Source of the DNA: Lamprocystis purpurea DSM 4197
GTDB taxonomy: Bacteria; Pseudomonadota; Gammaproteobacteria; Chromatiales; Chromatiaceae
Length of the DNA: 64,000 bases
Direction of reading: 5' to 3'
Assembly (NCBI RefSeq): GCF_000379525.1
Contig: NZ_KB902498.1
Coordinates: forward strand, 12,488 to 76,487
The position numbers and the translations under genes are program-made. The notes beneath the pieces were generated by a model, which saw only the letters and a list, made by a program, of their open reading frames with translations, was not told where the DNA came from and did no database searches. Below are positions 52,643-63,997 of this stretch, in pieces. Each line of letters begins with the position of its first letter. Position 1 is the stretch's first letter.

Positions 52643-54202
52643 TTATCTGTGAATATCTGTGACCTCTGTGGATACATCCGGATGATCGCTCTGGCCGGAG
52701 TGCCGATCATGGCCCTCGCCGCGCAGCCGCGCGAATGTCTCCGGGAAGCTGCGGATCAGGATATGCCGTGCCAGGTGGAAGGCAAAACTGTGTTGCTGGT
52801 TACGTGAATAATCGAAATAGCGGAACAGGGTCGTGGTCCCGGAATCACTCGACGGAGCCCAGCCGTATTTCACGCGCTTCATGCGGCTGGGGTAGAACCA
52901 GAACATGCGATAGAGGCTTTGCAGGAAGAAGTGCCGGTCGCGTTCATCCACGCGGTTCGAGGTATCCTTTTCCAGTTCGCGAATCAGTTGGTCGTAATAG
53001 GGGTCGTTGTCGTCGGCGCTGCGCCGCTCGCCGAGCATGCGCTTGGTCTCGAAATAGACGCGGTCCAGCGGAAGTTTGCGTCCCGGCGCATCCTCGCCGA
53101 TCAGTTCACGGGCCAGGTCTTCACTCACCTCCCCATAGGCGCGGCCGAGCAGGTCGAGCAGCAGCCGCTCATGCGGCTGCAATTCCGGCGGGAAGGCGAA
53201 CATGGCCCGCAGATTCGCCATGAAGATGAAGGCCACATCGGCCTCGCTCAGATCATCGAGCAGTTGGGTATGCGAGGTCCAATTGCGGACTTCCTTCAGG
53301 ATGGTGCCGTAGGCGGCCATGTAGGTGCCCTTGTCCTGCAGGTGATTGACCTTGGCGCGATTGTCCCATTCCCGGCTCAGGGCGTGCAGGAAGATCCGAT
53401 AACGCTGCTTGCGCTGTTCCGCCGGCCGCGGTGCGGTCAAGGGCAGCAGGGCGGTCAGGCTGCCCAAATAGTCGCGCACATAGACGGGACAGGCCGGTCC
53501 CGGCGGCCATTCGGGTTCGTCCTCCCGCTTGAAGAACAGTGAGAAGACCAGAGCGGCCCCGTCTCCTTGGTCCATCATCGCCTCCGCGGCGGCACAGCCG
53601 CGCAGTATCCCGCGGCGCAGGACGGAATACTCATCCGCGCGCTTATCTAGGATCCAGCGATTGACCTCGGCATCGCGTTTGGTATGGATGACCGGGGGGT
53701 GCAGTTTCGCCGCGGCAAACGCCTGCGTAATGGAGGTGAGCTGATCCCCGTGATTCGAGCAGAAGAGGATGTGCCGCTTTGGGAACCCGGCCTCGATCAG
53801 CAGTTCGGTGAAGATATGATAGCCTGCCACTTTTTTCAATTCATTGACGGCGGCTCGCCACACCGGTCCCAGGGGTTGACTATCGCCCCGCTGCTCCCGC
53901 AGATAGCCTTTCTCCCGCAGAAAGCTGTCGATCTCGGCGACACACTCCGGGTCATCCAGGTCGTAATCCTCATAGGGCTTCAGGTCGATATCGATGACCA
54001 CATAGTCGATTTCGCTCAAGCGCATGGGATCACGAACGAAACGCAAGGCGGCGAAGAAGGTGGTCTTGAGGGTGACGCCGCGGTCCTCCAGCCATTCTTT
54101 GAGGTCCTGCACGGCAGTCGGCGCGTCGGCCAGGCCGAAGACCTGATCAACGGTGGCCTGGATATCGCTTTCAAAGTCTTCGATCCACAGAAAATGGCTC
54201 AT
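52643..54202 (-). CDS. Receiver-domain protein with unrecognised output domain
   Basis: A 519-residue soluble protein. Residues 1-180 fit a response-regulator receiver: acidic pair E8-D9 (FLWIEDFESD), phosphoacceptor D71 in YVVIDIDL, S149 in HILFCSN and K175 in VIHTKRD. About 60 residues are inserted after D71. The other ~340 residues are helical, Arg-rich, and show no DNA-binding or enzymatic motif I recognise. The gene starts 5 nt after the histidine kinase-like gene, so the two should be partners. The last residues (DRHSGQSDHP...) may be variable. Confidence 0.7.
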   Translation of the reverse strand: MSHFLWIEDFESDIQATVDQVFGLADAPTAVQDLKEWLEDRGVTLKTTFFAALRFVRDPMRLSEIDYVVIDIDLKPYEDYDLDDPECVAEIDSFLREKGYLREQRGDSQPLGPVWRAAVNELKKVAGYHIFTELLIEAGFPKRHILFCSNHGDQLTSITQAFAAAKLHPPVIHTKRDAEVNRWILDKRADEYSVLRRGILRGCAAAEAMMDQGDGAALVFSLFFKREDEPEWPPGPACPVYVRDYLGSLTALLPLTAPRPAEQRKQRYRIFLHALSREWDNRAKVNHLQDKGTYMAAYGTILKEVRNWTSHTQLLDDLSEADVAFIFMANLRAMFAFPPELQPHERLLLDLLGRAYGEVSEDLARELIGEDAPGRKLPLDRVYFETKRMLGERRSADDNDPYYDQLIRELEKDTSNRVDERDRHFFLQSLYRMFWFYPSRMKRVKYGWAPSSDSGTTTLFRYFDYSRNQQHSFAFHLARHILIRSFPETFARLRGEGHDRHSGQSDHPDVSTEVTDIHR

Positions 54203-54207
54203 TGGCC

Positions 54208-55788
54208 CTACTCCAGGAACAGGTTTGCAGGTAACTGCAAGACCAAAGTGAATTGATGGCCGTCGGTAGCGGCGATGACCTGCCCGTCCAGCTTCTCAGT
54301 GAGTAAGCGTAAGAAATCATGGCCGCGCCCGCTCCCCTTGACCATCGCCGCGGCGCTTGGCGTGGTCGGGTTGCTGAAGCCCAGTTGCACGTGGCCGTCG
54401 GCGAGGTCGCACCAGGCGCGCGCCGGCGCGTGATCCGAGCATGCCGAGTATTTGAAGAGGTTGGTGAATGACTCGGTCAGCAGGATGGTCAAGAAGGATT
54501 CCGTGGTGCCGTAGGCGGTGAAGCGGATGGGTGCGTCCGCGAACCCGCGGGTGTGCAGCGGAAAACAGCGGGCACCGACCCACTCGCAGAGCAGCGGCAG
54601 GTCCGCCCGCGGGAGCAGTTCCATCAGTGACTGCTCCCACTCGCCGCGCAACTGTTCACCAAGGCGCAGGTGCCGCTCATGCCAATCCCGCAGCCGGGTG
54701 GCCCCCGGAACCAGCGCATTGTCACGCGCGTAACTCAGGAAATGTTGTTGGATACGTTCGCTCCCGCGCCTTGAGAGCAGTTGTCCGAGTGCGAGCCCCA
54801 GGGAGCGGATGGCGACCTGCTCCAGGCTGGAGTCGCCGCTATGGTCCTGCTGCAGCTTGCGGCGTAGCAGTTCGGTATCGGTTGAGATCAGGCTGAAAAT
54901 ATCGAGCAGACCGCGCATGGTGCTGACCGCCTCGCGATGCACCCAGGGGCTGTTCTCATGGTCCGTATTATAGATGATGCGGTCCAGTGAGCCGCGAAAT
55001 TTGTGCGCGACCAGGGCCATGACATCCTCCTGTTCTTTGTTCTTGGCACGCAGAATATCGGCGGCGTGGATGGCCTGCTCAGCCACTTTGGTCCTGGCAT
55101 TGAGCCGGCGAACATAACGCAGTTGGAACAGATAGCCGCGATAATATTCCTCGAACAGGACGATCAGACAGAAAATCGGGATGGTGAGTAAGGTCATCAG
55201 TTCCATGGCATGAGCGCCGTCGGTCGGTACGGTGTCGAGAAAGAACAGCACGCGAACCAGGACCAGCAGCGCGAACCCGATCATCAGGTAGGCGAGCCGG
55301 TTCAGATACCTGGGGTTGCGATTGGCATAGCGGATCGGATCGGAAAAGACGCGCAAGGCCGGATAGAAGACGGACAGGCGGTCGCCGCCTGGGGTATCGG
55401 GAATGAATGATTTGCCGACCCGCGCGATGCGGTGATGCGCCCGTCGCCCGTAGGTGGCGGCGACCGCGACCCCGGCGACATAGAGCCAGAAGACCGCGGG
55501 CCATTCGATGTAGATGGTGCTCAACGACGGCACCCGATCGGTCAGCAAATAGGCGACATAGGTGGTGAAATCCATCAGGCAGTAGCCGATGGCGATCTTC
55601 ATGAAGGTCGTGGTATGCACCGTCCAATGGTCCAGCCAGGCCCGGACACGGCGGATGGCGGGCAGTTCGGCGAAGAGCGGCAGCAGACGGTAAGGGCTGA
55701 GCGGTTGCAATGGGTGTGGTCCAGATGGTGGGTCAGGCGGGTGACGCAGCTGGCCTGACGCGGCGGATGAACCCGAACCTGGAAGCAT
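54208..55788 (-). CDS. Membrane histidine kinase-like protein
   Basis: A ~526-residue protein with four TM helices (about 63-83, 95-112, 165-184, 195-212) and a cytoplasmic half. An H-box-like VAHKFRGSLDRI (H262) is followed by a HATPase-like N-box ESFTNLFKYS near 441 and G-box GSGRGHDF near 490. The helix after His is KFRGS rather than E/DLRTP, so it is an atypical kinase. Its start is uncertain; an internal ATG at 55602 just precedes TM1. It runs directly into the receiver gene. Confidence 0.65.
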   Translation of the reverse strand: MLPGSGSSAASGQLRHPPDPPSGPHPLQPLSPYRLLPLFAELPAIRRVRAWLDHWTVHTTTFMKIAIGYCLMDFTTYVAYLLTDRVPSLSTIYIEWPAVFWLYVAGVAVAATYGRRAHHRIARVGKSFIPDTPGGDRLSVFYPALRVFSDPIRYANRNPRYLNRLAYLMIGFALLVLVRVLFFLDTVPTDGAHAMELMTLLTIPIFCLIVLFEEYYRGYLFQLRYVRRLNARTKVAEQAIHAADILRAKNKEQEDVMALVAHKFRGSLDRIIYNTDHENSPWVHREAVSTMRGLLDIFSLISTDTELLRRKLQQDHSGDSSLEQVAIRSLGLALGQLLSRRGSERIQQHFLSYARDNALVPGATRLRDWHERHLRLGEQLRGEWEQSLMELLPRADLPLLCEWVGARCFPLHTRGFADAPIRFTAYGTTESFLTILLTESFTNLFKYSACSDHAPARAWCDLADGHVQLGFSNPTTPSAAAMVKGSGRGHDFLRLLTEKLDGQVIAATDGHQFTLVLQLPANLFLE

Positions 55789-56078: not shown

Positions 56079-57431
56079 TCATGAACAGTCGCGCTCCGCC
56101 TCAGGCGTGGTGACGCGGCGAATACACTCCAGGTCCAGTTCGGTTTGCTGCCGCACCATGCCCCGCGCCGGGGGGAACTGGCAGGCGAACCGGGAGCCGA
56201 CGCCCAGGGTGCTGGCGATCAGGAGACGGCCGCCGTGCCGTTTGAGAACGTGCTTGACGATGGCAAGCCCGAGACCGGTGCCGCCGGAGGCGCGCGAGCG
56301 GCCGCGATCCACGCGGTAGAAGCGCTCGGTGAGTCGCGGCAGGTGCTCCGCCGGGATGCCTTCGCCGTCGTCCGTCACCGTGAACAGCGGGTCGTCCGTA
56401 TCCGCGGTCCAGCGGATGTCGATGGTGGTGCCGTCGGGCGTGTGGCGCACCGCGTTGTGGATCAGATTGGCAAAGACGCTGCGCAGTTCGACCGGATTGC
56501 CGATCAGCAGCAGGGTCGCGTCCACGGCGACCCTGAAGTGGTGCCGGCCGGCGCTCAGGGTCTCGGCTTCATGGACGATATGGGCCAGATCCTCCGCGAC
56601 GTCGACCGGCACCTGGGTGGTGTCCTGGTCGGTCATCTCTAGCCGCGACAGGGTCAGCAGGTCGTCGATGATGGAGCGCATCCGCTCGGCCTGGTGTTGC
56701 ATCAACGTGAGCGGTCGACGGTGAGCGGGCGGGGTGGTCGGGGCATCCGCCAGGTTTTCCAGAAATCCGGTGATGACCGTCAGCGGGGTGCGCAGTTCGT
56801 GGGAGGCGTTGGCCACGAAGTCTCGCCGGATCATGTCGAGGTGATAGACCTTGGTGATGTCGCGGGCGACCACGAGCCGCTGGCGTTTGCGTTCGCCGAA
56901 GGGTGCGATGCGCAGCGACAAGGTGAGGGCGCGGTTGTGCTCGGGGGTGATGTCGAGCGGACGCATGTACTCGCCGGTCTCGATGAAGGTCACCAGTTCC
57001 GGATGCTCGATGAGATCGGCGAGTCGGCGGCCGTCGTCGCGCGGCCAGTGGATATCGAGCAACTCGGCAGCGGCCGGGTTGGCCCAGTCGATTTGCTGGA
57101 GTTTGTTCAGGGTCACCAGGGCGTCGGGTACCGCGTCCGCGGCCTCGCGGAAGCGGCGGCTGGAACGGATCTGGCGCTTGCGCCGCTTGCGCCCGCGCTG
57201 CTGATACTGGGCGATGCCGCGATAGATGTCGCCCCAGGGGCCGCGCGGGAACGGCGGCACCAGGCGGTGCTGGCGACGGATCAAGCGGACCAGCCGCAGC
57301 AGGTGATACAGATGGCGCGCGGCATAGGGCAGCAGCACCAGCGGCCAGACCCAGCCCGGCGGGACGCCGAACAGGAGCAGCGTGACACCCAGTGCGGCGG
57401 CAAGCGCCAGGAGGCCCAGCTCAAAGTTCAC
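56079..57431 (-). CDS. phoR: Phosphate-regulon sensor histidine kinase
   Basis: A 450-residue kinase/phosphatase that controls PhoB according to phosphate supply. Two close TM segments near the N-terminus (about 3-25 and 28-45), a charged linker, a PAS domain (about 95-190), then HisKA (ANASHELRTPLTVI) and HATPase (FANLIHNAVRHT, DDGEGIP, GGTGLGLAIVKHV). It begins 2 nt after phoB ends. pst genes are not in the window. Confidence 0.93.
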   Translation of the reverse strand: MNFELGLLALAAALGVTLLLFGVPPGWVWPLVLLPYAARHLYHLLRLVRLIRRQHRLVPPFPRGPWGDIYRGIAQYQQRGRKRRKRQIRSSRRFREAADAVPDALVTLNKLQQIDWANPAAAELLDIHWPRDDGRRLADLIEHPELVTFIETGEYMRPLDITPEHNRALTLSLRIAPFGERKRQRLVVARDITKVYHLDMIRRDFVANASHELRTPLTVITGFLENLADAPTTPPAHRRPLTLMQHQAERMRSIIDDLLTLSRLEMTDQDTTQVPVDVAEDLAHIVHEAETLSAGRHHFRVAVDATLLLIGNPVELRSVFANLIHNAVRHTPDGTTIDIRWTADTDDPLFTVTDDGEGIPAEHLPRLTERFYRVDRGRSRASGGTGLGLAIVKHVLKRHGGRLLIASTLGVGSRFACQFPPARGMVRQQTELDLECIRRVTTPEAERDCS

Positions 57432-57433
57432 GG

Positions 57434-58120
57434 TCAGGTCTTGTCGGACAGGCGGTAGCCGACGCCGCGCACGGTTTGCAGGAGTCGGTCATGTCCGGTC
57501 GGTTCCAGCGCCTTGCGCAGGCGCCGCACATGCACATCGACTGTTCGTTCCTCCACGTAGACCTGATCGCCCCAGACCTGATCGAGTAACTGGGAGCGGC
57601 TGAAGGCGCGGTCGCTGTGGGTCATCAGGAAGTGCAGCAGCCGATACTCGGTGGGTGCCACCTCGACCGGAGTGCCTTCGGCGCTGACCCGGTGGCTGAC
57701 ATTGTCGATGCGCAGTCCGCCGATCTCGATCTCCTCGGCGCACTCATCCGGCCGGGCGCGGCGCAGCACGGCGTTGATGCGGGCGACCATTTCACGCGGT
57801 GAGAAGGGCTTGGAAATATAATCATCGGCCCCGGTATCCAGCCCTTTGATCCGGTCCTCCTCTTCGCCGCGCGCGCTGACCATGATGATTGGCAGGGTGC
57901 GGGTCTTTGGACTTTGCTTGAGCTGCTGGGCGAGTTCCAGTCCGGAGCGGCCGGGGAGCATCCAGTCCAGCAGAATCAGGTCCGGGTTCTCGATCGTCAG
58001 TTGTTTACGCGCCTCGTCCGCATGTCCGGCTTCGATCACGTCGAAGCCCGCGGTTTCCAGTGTAAAGCGGATCACCTCGCGGATATCCGGTTCATCGTCG
58101 ACAACAAGGATGGTGGTCAT
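57434..58120 (-). CDS. phoB: Phosphate-regulon response regulator
   Basis: A 228-residue OmpR-family regulator. The receiver has DDEPDIRE, phosphoacceptor Asp in LILLDWML and SKPF; the winged helix has [13 protein letters not shown]. It binds Pho boxes when phosphorylated. The ATG at 58120 starts MTTILVVDD; the frame is open upstream. It is divergent from btaA, whose upstream region has four GTCA(C/T) repeats. Confidence 0.95.
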
Positions 58121-58290
58121 GGTGCTGCGGTCCTGCGGAGGTCGGGGTGGCGCAGGAGCGTCACGCTGACCTGGTTCTTGGCGACATGGGGCCGCCCCGG
58201 CGTGCGCCGGGGCGGATGCAAGCCGAGATTCTATGTACAACGGGTTACGGTTCGATGACCAAGGCGCCCCGGTATCGCGAGCGCAGTGGA

Positions 58291-58344
58291 GTCACATCAT
58301 GGTCACCGGGGAGTCATCGCCAGGTCACTTCAGGTCGGTACACT
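58291..58344 (+). promoter_or_regulatory. Tandem Pho boxes and -10 for btaAB
   Basis: GTCA(C/T) begins at 58291, 58302, 58313 and 58324, exactly 11 bp apart, i.e. two Pho boxes in tandem. TACACT (58339-58344) lies 10 bp past the last repeat, where a -10 is expected at PhoB-activated promoters. Confidence 0.8.
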
Positions 58345-58395
58345 CTCCCGACTTGCGCCCCAGCCGATCCCCACGACCTCATCCAGAGACTTGCC

Positions 58396-59595
58396 GTGAA
58401 AGCAGCCCTTACCCTTCGTGATCGTATCGACCAGGCCGTCTTCAACGCCATCTATGCCAGGTCACTGGTGTACAACACCTGCTGGGAGGATCCCGCGGTG
58501 GACCGCATCGCGCTGGACCTGCGGCCGGATGATACCCTGTTGGTGATCACCAGCGCCGGGTGTAACGTGCTGGATTATGCTTTGGCTGGGCCTCGGCGTA
58601 TCCACGCGGTGGACGCCAATCCGCGGCAGACGGCGCTGCTGGAACTTAAGTTGTCGGGTATCCGGCGCCTCGCCTTCGATGACTTCTTTGCCTTGTTCGG
58701 CAGCGGCGTCCACGACAGTTTCCGCGAGGTCTATCATGACAGCCTGCGCGCCGATCTCTCGCCGTTCGCCCAACAGTTTTGGGACGATCGTCTGCATTGG
58801 TTCAGCAGTCGGCAGGGGAGCTTTTACTTCCAGGGACTGTCCGGCACCGTGGCCCGCGCCTTTCACACCTACCTCAAGGTCCGCCCGCGCCTGGCGGCGA
58901 GCGTCGGGGAATTGTTTCAGGCCGGCAGCCTGGAGGATCAGCGAACCATCTATGACACCCGGGTTCAGCCGCTGATGTGGGGGCCGGGAATGAACTGGAC
59001 CCTGTCGCGTCAACTGACCATGAGTATGCTGGGGGTGCCCTATGCCCAGCGCCGTCAGGTCCAGGCGCAGCATCACCGCGGGGTGGCGGGTTTCATCCGC
59101 GAGGCGGTCGAGTATGTGTTCCGCGAGTTGCCGGTCTGGACCAATTATTTCTGGACTGTCTACATCAACGGGCATTACACGCAAAGCTGCTGTCCGGAGT
59201 ACCTGAAGCGCGACAATTTCCAGGCCCTCAAAGCGGGTCTCGCCGATCGGGTGGAGCCTCATACCTGTACCGTGACCGCCTTTCTCCAGTCGACCCCGGA
59301 GCGCATTTCCAAGTTCGTGCTGCTCGATCACATGGACTGGATGAGTTCCTATTACCCGGAGGCGCTGGCCGAGGAGTGGACCGCCATCCTGGACCGCGCC
59401 GCGCCGGGGGCGCGGGTGATCTTCCGTAGCGCCCATGCGGCTCCGGCCTATCTGGACCTGATCGAACTCGGCGAACAACGCACCCGACTGCGCGAACGCC
59501 TGGTCTTCCACGACGCCATGGCCCGCGATCTGCAGCGTCAGGATCGGGTGCACACCTATGCCGGTTTCCATGTCGCCGACCTGGCCGGGGCCTGA
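58396..59595 (+). CDS. btaA: SAM:diacylglycerol 3-amino-3-carboxypropyltransferase BtaA
   Basis: A 399-residue DUF3419 protein that moves the aminocarboxypropyl group of SAM onto diacylglycerol to give diacylglyceryl-homoserine. Family features: VYNTCWEDPAVDR, SAGCNVLDYAL (SAM loop), VDANPRQTALLELK and NYFWTVYINGHY. The GTG at 58396 starts VKAALTLRDRI; no better start lies near. btaB follows at 2 nt. Pho boxes suggest induction under phosphate starvation, when bacteria replace phospholipid. Confidence 0.92.
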   Translation: MKAALTLRDRIDQAVFNAIYARSLVYNTCWEDPAVDRIALDLRPDDTLLVITSAGCNVLDYALAGPRRIHAVDANPRQTALLELKLSGIRRLAFDDFFALFGSGVHDSFREVYHDSLRADLSPFAQQFWDDRLHWFSSRQGSFYFQGLSGTVARAFHTYLKVRPRLAASVGELFQAGSLEDQRTIYDTRVQPLMWGPGMNWTLSRQLTMSMLGVPYAQRRQVQAQHHRGVAGFIREAVEYVFRELPVWTNYFWTVYINGHYTQSCCPEYLKRDNFQALKAGLADRVEPHTCTVTAFLQSTPERISKFVLLDHMDWMSSYYPEALAEEWTAILDRAAPGARVIFRSAHAAPAYLDLIELGEQRTRLRERLVFHDAMARDLQRQDRVHTYAGFHVADLAGA

Positions 59596-59597
59596 CC

Positions 59598-60329
59598 ATG
59601 GGTGTCAGCGATGCCCAGGTCCTGTGGCGGCTGGTGCGCGGCCAGCCCCGTCGCGGCACTCTGGCGGAACGGCTGCAAGGTTTCTACGGTCCCCAGGCCG
59701 CGCACTATGACGCGTTCCGTGAGCGCCTGCTGCACGGCCGGGCGGAGTTGATGGAGCGGTTGGCTCCCGAACCCGGCGCGGTGGTGGTCGAACTGGGCGC
59801 CGGCACCGGGCGCAATCTGGGATTTCTGGGCGAGCGCCTGGCAACCCTGGAGTCAGTCACGTTGGTCGACCTGTGTTCGGCACTGCTCGAACAGGCGCGG
59901 CGGCGGACCCGCGGTCTGCCCAATGTGCGGGTGGTGGAGGCCGATGCCTGCACCTATCGCCCGGCGGCGCCGGTCGATCTGGTTTACTTCTCCTATTCGC
60001 TGACCATGATCCCGGACTGGGAGGCGGCGCTCCGCAACGCGCTCGCCATGCTCAAGCCGGGCGGCGCCCTGGGCGTGGTCGACTTCTACTGCTCGGATGT
60101 CGAGCCCGCGCCGGGACTGGTGCGGCACGGCGCCTTGACCCGCTGGTTCTGGCCGCGCTGGTTCGCCCATGACGGGGTGCGGCCCACGCCCGACCACCTG
60201 CGCGCCCTGCGCGGGTTCCTGCCCGACCATCAGTTATCGGAACACCGTGCCGCGGTGCCCTATTTGCCGGGGCTGCGCGTTCCTTACTATGTCTTTGTCG
60301 GGCGTCTGGCCGGCGAGTTCGCATCCTAG
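59598..60329 (+). CDS. btaB: Diacylglyceryl-homoserine N-methyltransferase BtaB
   Basis: A 243-residue class I methyltransferase. The SAM loop is VVELGAGTGRNL, with the acidic strand LVDLCSALL and the YFSYSLTMIPDW segment typical of BtaB. It trimethylates the homoserine headgroup to form DGTS. It begins 2 nt after btaA. The stop codon lies inside the left arm of a MITE-like repeat. Confidence 0.9.
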   Translation: MGVSDAQVLWRLVRGQPRRGTLAERLQGFYGPQAAHYDAFRERLLHGRAELMERLAPEPGAVVVELGAGTGRNLGFLGERLATLESVTLVDLCSALLEQARRRTRGLPNVRVVEADACTYRPAAPVDLVYFSYSLTMIPDWEAALRNALAMLKPGGALGVVDFYCSDVEPAPGLVRHGALTRWFWPRWFAHDGVRPTPDHLRALRGFLPDHQLSEHRAAVPYLPGLRVPYYVFVGRLAGEFAS

Positions 60330-60447: not shown

Positions 60448-60706
60448 TAACCGGTTCCGCCTAAGACTGCTGGCCGGCACCTCAAGATTGGCTGGCGCAA
60501 CCGATCCATCTGCCGCAACTTCGTTATCTTGGTCGGTCCGCACGGAAATCAGCAACGTTGACCGGACGATCGACAGTCCGGATACTTCCGAGCTTACTCG
60601 GGGTGTATCGCATGCGGTTTCCCCAGAAGCCGTGGTTACGCCGAAATCACTGAGTATCGATGTTTTGCCGCAGACGCGGTTCGTGTCCGGAATTCGGGGA
60701 AAGCAC

Positions 60707-61153
60707 ATGACCGAGCGATACAGTGTCGCGGCCGAGCGGCATCATCGCGTGGCCGTAAGGTTGGAAGCCGACGGCGAAATCGACGACGCCGCCTACCATT
60801 ACGGACTGGTCGGTGAGAACGCCTTGAAATACGGCCTGCTCAAGTCCGGCGTAGTCCCGGCGTGGGATGCGGGTGGCATAAAACGGACAAATACGCCGAT
60901 GGGGAAGCATTTTCCTAAGTTGACCCCGATAATTCGGGACTTTATCGCCGACATTCGCTTGTTCGCAAGCGGATGCATCGGTGCCCAGATCCAGTCGGTA
61001 GTTGACGATCCGGCTTTTTTTGGCCGATTTCAGGGTTGGTCGATCGACATCCGCTACGCCGATGACCAATGTACCCCGGTGGACCCCGCTGATTGCGCGC
61101 GCTGGGCGCAGGATGCCGACCTGTTCCTGCGGCGGCTCGTGCTGATGGTCTGA
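60707..61153 (+). CDS. HEPN-like small protein (cassette gene 1)
   Basis: A 148-residue helical protein. DDAAYHYGLVGENALKYGL resembles the conserved helix of HEPN domains (A-x-H-x-x-G-x-x-x-E-x-A-L-K), and IDIRYADD resembles a later HEPN strand. The RxxxxH RNase motif is not visible, so it may be a non-catalytic or antitoxin-like member. GGGGA precedes the ATG; the frame extends to 60488 without homology. It is 10 nt before the next gene, so they form an operon. Confidence 0.6.
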   Translation: MTERYSVAAERHHRVAVRLEADGEIDDAAYHYGLVGENALKYGLLKSGVVPAWDAGGIKRTNTPMGKHFPKLTPIIRDFIADIRLFASGCIGAQIQSVVDDPAFFGRFQGWSIDIRYADDQCTPVDPADCARWAQDADLFLRRLVLMV

Positions 61154-61163
61154 GGATACCCTG

Positions 61164-62513
61164 GTGACATTGCGATTTCACGAAAGCCTGGGGCGCCTGG
61201 TGGCTGAAGTCGAAGCGGCAGGGATTCCGCTCGACGACGCGACGGTCTTCTTGCGTGATGGTGAAGGCCGCCTTATGGTCGCCCGTGAGTCGCTGCCCGA
61301 TGCGCAGGCCCTCGCAGCTAGCTTGAGCAAGACCTTGGGTGCCTATGCGTCCATGCGGCCGGTCATTGATGGGCGGATTGCGGCTGCCTTGGTCAAAGAT
61401 CAAGCGGCCAGCGAGATTCCTGTCGTGTTGCCTGGCCGTCCGGCAGAGGGGCCGCGGATCATCCGCATGGTGGACCGCCGTTTCGTCGGTGCGGACTGGA
61501 TGGTTCCTCCGGAACCGGTGCCGCAGGGTGGTCCGCCGAGGTTGGTATTCAGTTCCCTCAAGGGCGGCGTTGGACGTTCGACGGCACTGGCGGTCCTGGC
61601 CGCGGATCTGGCGCGACATGGACTCAAGGCGCTCGCTATTGATCTGGATTTGGAGGCACCAGGCATTGGATTCATGCTGCTGGATGCGTCAGAGGACCCG
61701 GCGCAGGATCGGCGCCCCAACTATGGCGTATTGGACTATCTCGTTGAGAACGGCTTGGGCGGTGTGGCCGATGAGGAGCTTTTCGATTTCGTCGGTGTCA
61801 GCCCGTTCACTGACGGCTCGGTTGATGTAGTGCCGGTGGTCGGACGGGTGACCGACCAGCACCCGGAGACGATGCTGGCGAAGTTGTCGCGGGCGCATGT
61901 CGAGGATGCAGGCAGCCGTGGGCCGATCTCGTTTACCAATCAAGTCCGCGAAATGGTCGACCGGTTTGCCGCACGTGCCGAATACGACGTGATCCTGATC
62001 GATGCGCGGGCCGGACTTGCGGAATCCAGTGCGCCGGCATTGCTGGCGCTAGGCGCTGAGATCCTGTTCTTCGGCGCGGATCAACCCCAGACCTTTCATA
62101 GTTATCGCTATCTTTTCGCCCATCTCCTGCATTGCTTCGGAACTGGCCCAAGTGGCTACCGGGATTGGCGCGGGCACCTGTCGTTCGTCCAGGCGAAAGC
62201 GCCCTCATCGGCCCAGCAGCGGATTGACTTCCGCGATCGGTTGCATGGCCTTTGTGCCGAGTTCCTCTACGATAAGGAAAGCCTGGCTGCCGATGGATCG
62301 GTCCAGGTTGCTGACTTCAATTTCGGTGTCGCCGATGCCGGACGTGGCGTTCCTCATGACGCCTTGTTCGTCGCATTTCATCCGGATTACATGGCCTTCG
62401 ATTCACCCTCCGATGGCACGCCCCTGGACCCTGACGTGTATCGCGGACCATTCGGTGATTTCCTGAATCGGACCTGGGATTTGCTCGGGTTGAGTCGGGA
62501 CGGCCGGACGTGA
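61164..62513 (+). CDS. KGGVGR-variant MinD/ParA-like ATPase (cassette gene 2)
   Basis: A 449-residue protein. Residues 1-95 form a small unrecognised domain. The deviant Walker A is KGGVGRST at 133-140; the catalytic-motif second Lys of KGGVGKT is Arg. DLDLEAPG follows, and VILIDARAGLAESS near 275 is the switch II region. The KGGVGR variant marks a known subgroup of ParA-like ATPases that I associate, from memory, with multi-gene cassettes. GTG start; overlaps gene 3 by 4 nt. Confidence 0.75.
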   Translation: MTLRFHESLGRLVAEVEAAGIPLDDATVFLRDGEGRLMVARESLPDAQALAASLSKTLGAYASMRPVIDGRIAAALVKDQAASEIPVVLPGRPAEGPRIIRMVDRRFVGADWMVPPEPVPQGGPPRLVFSSLKGGVGRSTALAVLAADLARHGLKALAIDLDLEAPGIGFMLLDASEDPAQDRRPNYGVLDYLVENGLGGVADEELFDFVGVSPFTDGSVDVVPVVGRVTDQHPETMLAKLSRAHVEDAGSRGPISFTNQVREMVDRFAARAEYDVILIDARAGLAESSAPALLALGAEILFFGADQPQTFHSYRYLFAHLLHCFGTGPSGYRDWRGHLSFVQAKAPSSAQQRIDFRDRLHGLCAEFLYDKESLAADGSVQVADFNFGVADAGRGVPHDALFVAFHPDYMAFDSPSDGTPLDPDVYRGPFGDFLNRTWDLLGLSRDGRT

Positions 62514-63997
62514 CTGCCGCTTTGTCAGGCGACCTCACCGCGATCCGGGCGGGTCTGGCAGCACTGCCTGACCTCGCACATCATGTCGCCGGGGACCCGG
62601 TCGAGCCTGATCAGATCTTCTTTCCATATGGCCATGATGCCGCGCTCAATCCGGATGTTGCCTTGGTGGTAGGCAATCGCGGCGTGGGCAAGAGTTTTTG
62701 GGCCAGTGCGCTGGCGGATGAAAAGGCGCGTTCCGCCATCGCCGAGGGCTATCGCGAATACCGTTATCAGCGCCGACTCGATGGTTTGACGGTTCGTTTT
62801 GGTTTCTCCGGTGGGGAGGGTGGCGGCAATGCACTGATCAGCAGCGCTCACATCACGGGTATGAAGTCAAAAACGCTGCCGCTACTCCTGTGGCGCGCTG
62901 CCGTCGTTCGCTGTTTGGCCCCGATTATCGAGCATGCGATACCTGCCAAATTCAATGACCTCATCGCCTGGATCAAGGACAACCCGGACGATCAGCAGGC
63001 GCTGTTTCGGAACGCGGACCGGGTATTGAGTGAAAAGAAAGAGCGCGTGCTGATTCTCTTTGATCAACTGGAGCAGATGGCGGACGATTGGAGCCGCATC
63101 AACGAGTTGACTAAAGGGCTGCTACAGACCGCATTGGCGATGAAGAGCTACAAGGCGATCCGACTCAAGATCTTCATGCGCCCCGACCAATTCGAGAATG
63201 CCTCCCTCTTCCAATTTCCTGACGGCTCGAAGATCCGAGGTGAGGCCCTGCGTCTATGGTGGCGCCCCACCGACCTGTACGCCTTGTTGTACTTTGAGTT
63301 GCTGCGATCCCCCGTATCAACCAAGGCGATTCGGGCGGTTTGTCGGGGTTTCGGGATTGTCCCCAGATCGAACCATCCGTCCAGATTACCTCAGGACTTG
63401 GTTACCAGCGAAGATCAGCAGCGGCGGGTGTTTGAAGTAATTGCCGGGGCGTTTATGGGGAGGGGAAAGAACCGCGGTGCTCCCTATACCTGGATGCCAC
63501 TGCACCTGAGTGACGCGCGCGGCGAGGTGTCGCCGAGGACCTTCCTGAAGGCGCTCAAGGCCGCCGCCGATCATGCGCAAGCCCCTACCGCTTCGGCTAT
63601 CGACTTCAACGACATCAATAACGGCGTCCGCGCCGCTTCCGATCATCGTCTGGCGGAATTACAAGAGGATTATCCCTGGGTGACCCAGGCATTGGAACCT
63701 TTGCACGGCGCCTCGGTGCCCGCGTTGAAAGACGAGATCTACAGTCGTTGGCGGTCAGCCGGTGTAGTGACGGAGATTCTTGACCGATATACCGGTACCC
63801 GTGCGCCGATCGATCTCGTCTTGGCGAACGAGTTTGAAACGGATGATGGTCAAATGGCCTCCCTCCTCAAACTCCTGCAAGACATCGGCGTGATGGACGT
63901 GCGTAAGAACGGCAAGATCGATGTGCCTGACATCTTCCGGGTCCGTGCGGGCATTTTACGCCGGGGCGGTGTTCCTCCCCAACAACGCCGGGCGTAA
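62510..63997 (+). CDS. P-loop NTPase of unknown function (cassette gene 3)
   Basis: A 495-residue protein with Walker A GNRGVGKS (55-62) and Walker B RVLILFDQLEQM (179-190). A C-terminal stretch with LLKLLQDIGVMDVRKNGKIDVPDIFR may be a winged helix. It resembles the large P-loop ATPases found with KGGVGR proteins, but I cannot place it in a named family with certainty. Start GTG overlaps gene 2. It ends 3 nt before the window edge, so more cassette genes may follow. Confidence 0.7.
   Translation: MTAALSGDLTAIRAGLAALPDLAHHVAGDPVEPDQIFFPYGHDAALNPDVALVVGNRGVGKSFWASALADEKARSAIAEGYREYRYQRRLDGLTVRFGFSGGEGGGNALISSAHITGMKSKTLPLLLWRAAVVRCLAPIIEHAIPAKFNDLIAWIKDNPDDQQALFRNADRVLSEKKERVLILFDQLEQMADDWSRINELTKGLLQTALAMKSYKAIRLKIFMRPDQFENASLFQFPDGSKIRGEALRLWWRPTDLYALLYFELLRSPVSTKAIRAVCRGFGIVPRSNHPSRLPQDLVTSEDQQRRVFEVIAGAFMGRGKNRGAPYTWMPLHLSDARGEVSPRTFLKALKAAADHAQAPTASAIDFNDINNGVRAASDHRLAELQEDYPWVTQALEPLHGASVPALKDEIYSRWRSAGVVTEILDRYTGTRAPIDLVLANEFETDDGQMASLLKLLQDIGVMDVRKNGKIDVPDIFRVRAGILRRGGVPPQQRRA

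Follow-up and report, generated by a model that had tools for sequence, protein, structure and literature searches.

Predicted PhoB control of the betaine-lipid genes btaAB through a conserved Pho-box promoter, next to phoBR in some Thiodictyon genomes

Betaine-lipid genes that stand back to back with the genes of the phosphate regulator raise two questions: whether their promoter is itself a target of PhoB, and whether such control has its source in the neighborhood. The locus studied here lies in a 64-kb stretch of DNA, referred to throughout as the window, from a 6.9-Mb genome (G000) of Thiodictyon, a genus of purple sulfur bacteria. The features of the locus, in order along the window, are as follows.

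56079-57431, minus strand: phoR, sensor kinase (TIGR02966, 405.9 bits, cut-off 334.2; PF11808 PhoR)
57434-58120, minus strand: phoB, response regulator (TIGR02154, a curated equivalog, 346.9 bits, cut-off 296.2)
58228-58259, minus strand: predicted Pho box and -10 of phoB itself, GTCAT-N6-GTAAC-N10-TAGAAT, with the -10 at 58228-58233; laid out as at btaA and facing phoB
58291-58328, plus strand: predicted tandem Pho box ahead of btaA, four GTCAY units at 11-bp steps
58339-58344, plus strand: -10-like hexamer TACACT, beginning 15 nt past the first base of the fourth GTCAY unit
58396-59595, plus strand: btaA, BtaA-type DUF3419 protein with a GTG start (PF11899, 392 bits, cut-off 28.2)
59598-60329, plus strand: btaB, putative class I SAM-dependent N-methyltransferase (Pfam methyltransferase families; assigned from homology and operon position)

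The regulator encoded here is 61% identical to E. coli PhoB. The btaA product is, by homology, a SAM:diacylglycerol 3-amino-3-carboxypropyltransferase, although the Pfam label of its family (PF11899) is still that of a domain of unknown function, and the DUF3419 gene is followed by that of a SAM methyltransferase, as befits a BtaA/BtaB pair. BtaB shares 35% identity across 162 aa with the methyltransferase encoded downstream of the DUF3419 gene in S. meliloti. The predicted BtaA model has a pLDDT of 91.1, and its fold matches in the PDB are only weak ones to SAM methyltransferases (best E 6.4e-3). Farther out on the btaB side, three genes (60488-63997, plus strand) have matches to PDC-M28, a candidate defence system of PADLOC (A 45.8, B 266.5, and C 430.1 bits). 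Two adjoining proteins of 519 and 526 aa (52643-54202 and 54208-55788, minus strand) are without a Pfam match at E <= 0.001 and are kept beside phoR in two other genomes of the genus, G004 and G006.

Judged from the gene families, the product of BtaA and BtaB is most likely DGTS. It is unlikely, in our estimate, that the DUF3419 protein and its methyltransferase make another aminolipid or metabolite from a PhoB-controlled promoter, a reading to which BtaA lends some weight in being only ~31% identical to an S. meliloti homologue and in having neither an NCBIfam match nor a sequence relative in the PDB. The company that btaA keeps argues otherwise. We compared 80 btaA loci, comprising 79 of the best 80 of 559 confirmed stretches together with the window (L213, in which the upstream DNA is cut, was dropped). 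A BtaB match lies downstream of btaA in all 80, and in 21 the flanks fetched around btaAB also contain a PlcP-like metallophosphoesterase gene, upstream in some (plcP-btaAB) and downstream in others (btaAB-plcP). The first of these orders is the type 1 arrangement of DGTS-making Phaeobacter, as given in the available part of PMC4796936.

The region ahead of btaA has the anatomy of a Pho-box promoter. Its direct repeats read GTCAC (58291-58295), GTCAC (58302-58306), GTCAT (58313-58317), and GTCAC (58324-58328), and the letters of the window bear out the four GTCA(C/T) repeats at exact 11-bp steps, with a -10 before btaAB, that an earlier note on this DNA had described. When up to one mismatch is allowed, GTCAY triples at 11-bp steps occur twice in the 64-kb window; each of the two is free of mismatches and lies inside the btaA array. 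The mean over dinucleotide shuffles of the window is 0.05, and 0 of 100 shuffles reached two. A consensus scan of 58100-58420 turned up no sigma-70 promoter that includes a -35 element. This is what substitution of PhoB for the -35 would predict, and the box stands where that element would be, at a fixed spacing of 15 nt from the -10. The E. coli K-12 promoters of phoA (GTCAT, GTCAC, TATAGT) and phoB (TTCAT, GTCAT, CATAAT) are built in the same way, with GTCAY-type repeats at 11 bp and a last unit that, by the measure used for btaA, lies 15 nt before the -10. They contain two units, whereas the btaA promoter of the window contains four, and the target genes differ.

Within its own genome, the btaA promoter ranks with those of classical Pho genes. 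The composite motif GTCAY-N6-GTCAY-N10-TANNNT occurs with 0 mismatches at just two sites in 6.9 Mb, ahead of btaA and of the pstS-pstC operon; with at most one mismatch it occurs at 21 sites, the phoB promoter (one mismatch) included, compared to 6 for a reversed-pattern control. The 15-nt spacing is common to the pstS and btaA promoters. In the pst operon, PstC scores 297.4 bits, well over the 196.45 of its cut-off, and PstS matches PF12849 and TIGR02136, the latter at 152 bits and under the cut-off of 206.6. Exact triple GTCAY arrays are confined in this genome to btaA and a second pstS-like gene (contig C157), which was named by reading its translation, without a family search. Several further Pho-box-like arrays lie at C157:76000-115000 (L086/L087), in the vicinity of genes for a phytase-like (PF13449) and a DUF1576 protein.

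The same genome encodes many response regulators of the OmpR family (at least 90 PhoB-model matches at E <= 0.001; of 136 candidates from the first look, 89 were scored), and one of these, rather than PhoB, might control btaAB through a similar 11-bp direct-repeat site. We give this little credence, as the btaA motif is common to the pst operon and phoB, which are classical PhoB targets in the same genome, and to E. coli phoA and phoB, and as an unrelated genome (L188, discussed below) has a PhoB-like regulator next to plcP-btaA.

The intergenic region also contains a second Pho box, absent from the earlier note, at 58228-58259 on the minus strand. It is divergent from the btaA array, and the inner edges of the two Pho promoters are 31 bp apart. 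A minus-strand box of like architecture that faces phoB points to two back-to-back Pho promoters in this region. Upstream of phoB, G004-G007 and G011 show this layout too, as does G010, where the hexamer reads TGTAAT; in G001 and G003 no Pho box was found within 300 bp ahead of phoB. Between the phoB -10 and the start codon, in what is likely the phoB leader, there is a GC-rich hairpin of 10 pairs (58192-58215, minus strand) with no T run after it, and the fold of 58118-58222 has a z-score of -2.43. That the four-unit array serves mainly for phoB autoregulation from a distance, with btaAB a passenger beside it, is highly improbable, and we rejected the array as phoB's own regulatory site: it does lie upstream of phoB too, and phoB adjoins it in 3 of 3 linked genomes, but phoB has a separate, correctly spaced minus-strand box, the plus-strand units are oriented toward btaA and have their -10 at 15 nt, and this layout recurs ahead of btaA where phoBR lie elsewhere.

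Relatives that retain btaAB also tend to retain its box. All six congeners with btaAB (G001, G003-G007) keep a box of 2 to 4 units with the -10 at 15 nt, and all four GTCAY units are preserved in G004 and G006; the promoter is identical in G001 and L151, an uncultured Thiodictyon sp. of the same genus. Twenty of 93 genomes, among them that of the window, have a DUF3419 gene, and 16 of these have a pair of units exactly 15 nt before TANNNT, compared to 0 of 20 at other offsets from 9 to 22. This count used the best locus per genome and accepted a unit pair at a minimum of 8 of 10 letters. The four misses are G044 (Thiohalocapsa marina) and the distant homologues G015, G018, and G058, with the gene start only approximate in G018 and G058.

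The 80 loci drawn from the best 80 of 559, seven of which overlap with the 20-genome set, give a similar result. A GTCAY pair stands exactly 15 nt before TANNNT in 67 of them. In the controls, no other offset between 9 and 22 gives more than 1 locus, the reverse strand gives 1, and shuffled sequences average 0.15 (maximum 1); Thiohalocapsa marina is again among the 13 loci without the motif. Other 260-bp segments from 68 of the 80 loci, 12 with shifted coordinates having been left out, contain the motif in 15 of 5,494 cases (0.3%). The 66 sites outside the window comprise 64 distinct 32-mers, with no spacer position at which one base is found in more than 31 of the 66, and with spacers this variable they are not duplicates of a single sequence. 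Some btaA contigs (L192, L196, L198, L215, and L221) carry MAG titles, such as Klebsiella pneumoniae, Bordetella parapertussis, and Chitinophaga pinensis, that may be mislabelled. A class-wide sample gave a BtaA match in 26 of 369 genomes, the window's own included. Among the other 25 loci, which include more distant BtaA branches, seven carry the motif, and four of these seven belong to the 8 most similar loci; other offsets never exceed 1 within an identity group. No PhoB or PhoR match was found near btaA in any of the 25, in flanks of up to 1.5 kb. From these counts, the footprint is strong in the window's branch of BtaA and patchy beyond it.

Taken together, the genome-wide rank and the 67 of 80 loci (best 80 of 559) support PhoB control well and indicate that it is not special to the window's genome, in which PhoB control of btaAB is very likely. 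The earlier note had proposed such control from the window, and the comparison with related genomes that it suggested came out in favor: the conserved box with its 15-nt -10 in relatives, where control is likewise predicted, strengthens that proposal.

The answer to our second question is different. The earlier note also tied btaAB directly to the regulator genes, and this link is real in the window; however, btaAB is divergent from phoBR in only three of the seven Thiodictyon genomes with btaA (G000, G004, and G006) and in no other relative examined, and the adjacency is not what carries the regulation. The three genomes are close to one another, with BtaA 98% identical. In G001, G003, and G005 btaAB and phoB are on different contigs, in G007 they are 1.7 Mb apart, and all four of these genomes retain the btaA box. 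Because the box is kept where phoBR are elsewhere, we rejected the linkage as an explanation of the Pho boxes; it looks like a recent, lineage-specific local rearrangement rather than the source of regulation. Among the 80 loci (best 80 of 559) there is one other case of a regulator next to btaA. This locus, L188, comes from an uncultured proteobacterium; here plcP-btaA diverges from the gene of a PhoB-like regulator that scores 277 bits, short of the 296.2 set for PhoB. A Pho box faces the regulator, and on the plcP side no site meets the motif. The plcP and btaA reading frames of this locus (L188:3219-4974) overlap by 4 nt.

The diacylglycerol used by BtaA may come from a PlcP-like phospholipase C, for which the window's genome has a candidate gene.

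C1:131008-131841: PlcP-like gene of the window's genome, apart from btaAB; LpxH-like metallophosphoesterase (LpxH 51.1 bits, cut-off 190.35)

The protein is 48% identical to its S. meliloti homologue. As expected of a PlcP, it is LpxH-like but distinct from the true LpxH of the genome (278.4 bits), and genes of its kind lie near btaAB in relatives; its phospholipase activity is putative. We found no conserved Pho promoter here, as the strict motif is present upstream of plcP-like genes in 0 of 23 loci, the window's genome included. A GTCAY-like pair (at least 9/10) precedes the gene in 8 of the 23, exact only in G000, G004, and G006, and none of the 8 is followed by TANNNT at 15 nt. With plcP-like genes lacking the strict motif, there is no support for Pho control of the diacylglycerol supply. 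We also considered that btaAB had been cut from an ancestral plcP-btaAB locus and set this aside, with no excision scar or direction of movement demonstrable; the other genes around plcP in the window's genome have 0 matches in the six btaAB loci compared.

In E. coli, PhoB works by class-II activation, in which sigma-70 RNA polymerase is recruited to the -10. We consider it quite probable that the window holds a divergent region with two PhoB-dependent promoters, one for btaAB and one for autoregulation of phoBR, and that BtaA and BtaB make DGTS at low phosphate. Phosphorylated PhoB would bind the 11-bp repeats of the four-unit box, which would stand for the -35 of btaAB, and the bound PhoB would recruit sigma-70 RNA polymerase to the TACACT -10, while on the minus strand the two-unit box and TAGAAT would drive phoBR. 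As phosphate falls, BtaA would convert diacylglycerol and SAM to diacylglyceryl-homoserine, which BtaB would methylate to the phosphorus-free lipid DGTS.

Besides the E. coli phoA and phoB promoters, the closest known systems are in alphaproteobacteria. In Sinorhizobium meliloti, btaAB is PhoB-regulated according to the available text of PMC3972451 and strongly induced under phosphate stress according to that of PMC8829014, and it resembles the window in its btaA-btaB order and in the PhoB regulation that we predict here. Despite this reported control (PMC3972451, available text), the strict composite motif has no match upstream of S. meliloti btaA, and, unlike in the window, no phoBR is annotated in the 6-kb stretch around the gene. 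The type 1 cluster plcP-btaA-btaB of Phaeobacter sp. MED193 places betaine-lipid genes in the phosphorus-starvation response, as predicted for the window, and the accessible portion of PMC4796936 reports that plcP gene clusters have putative Pho boxes and that DGTS is lost when plcP is absent. There plcP lies beside btaAB, whereas in the window's genome it is on a separate contig (C1). The same portion of PMC4796936 credits SAR86 with PlcP, and what is available of PMC13086504 has remodelling genes expressed by Gammaproteobacteria; lipid remodelling in general is thus no novelty in this class. Alphaproteobacteria and eukaryotes are the DGTS producers that the accessible parts of the cited literature (including PMC4796936 and PMC3972451) name. 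Our search, with most subscription journals outside the literature covered, found no report of betaine lipids in Thiodictyon, Chromatiaceae, Chromatiales, or purple sulfur bacteria; in the available part of PMC12619533, betaine-lipid and purple-sulfur terms are both present, in unrelated places.

The promoters described here very likely represent a known kind of system, Pho-regulated betaine-lipid synthesis, predicted in this case for purple sulfur bacteria and many beta- and gammaproteobacteria. The interest lies mainly in a promoter layout that is so constant across divergent genomes and in a predicted lipid response for which we found no report. More speculatively, betaine-lipid synthesis may be a core Pho output in these bacteria by way of one conserved class-II promoter, with a bidirectional PhoB region shared with phoBR in a Thiodictyon subgroup. 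If this were true, the extra tandem boxes would be coupled to phoB autoregulation and membrane remodelling would be switched on together with the regulator, and L188, in which a PhoB-like gene stands back to back with plcP-btaA, would as an independent case make the arrangement a recurrent one. We predict that purple sulfur bacteria, and many beta- and gammaproteobacteria that carry the window's branch of BtaA, would swap phospholipids for a betaine lipid at phosphate shortage, with the conserved promoter providing a sequence criterion for this response. Where DGTS is found in stratified lakes, a bacterial source would need to be considered.
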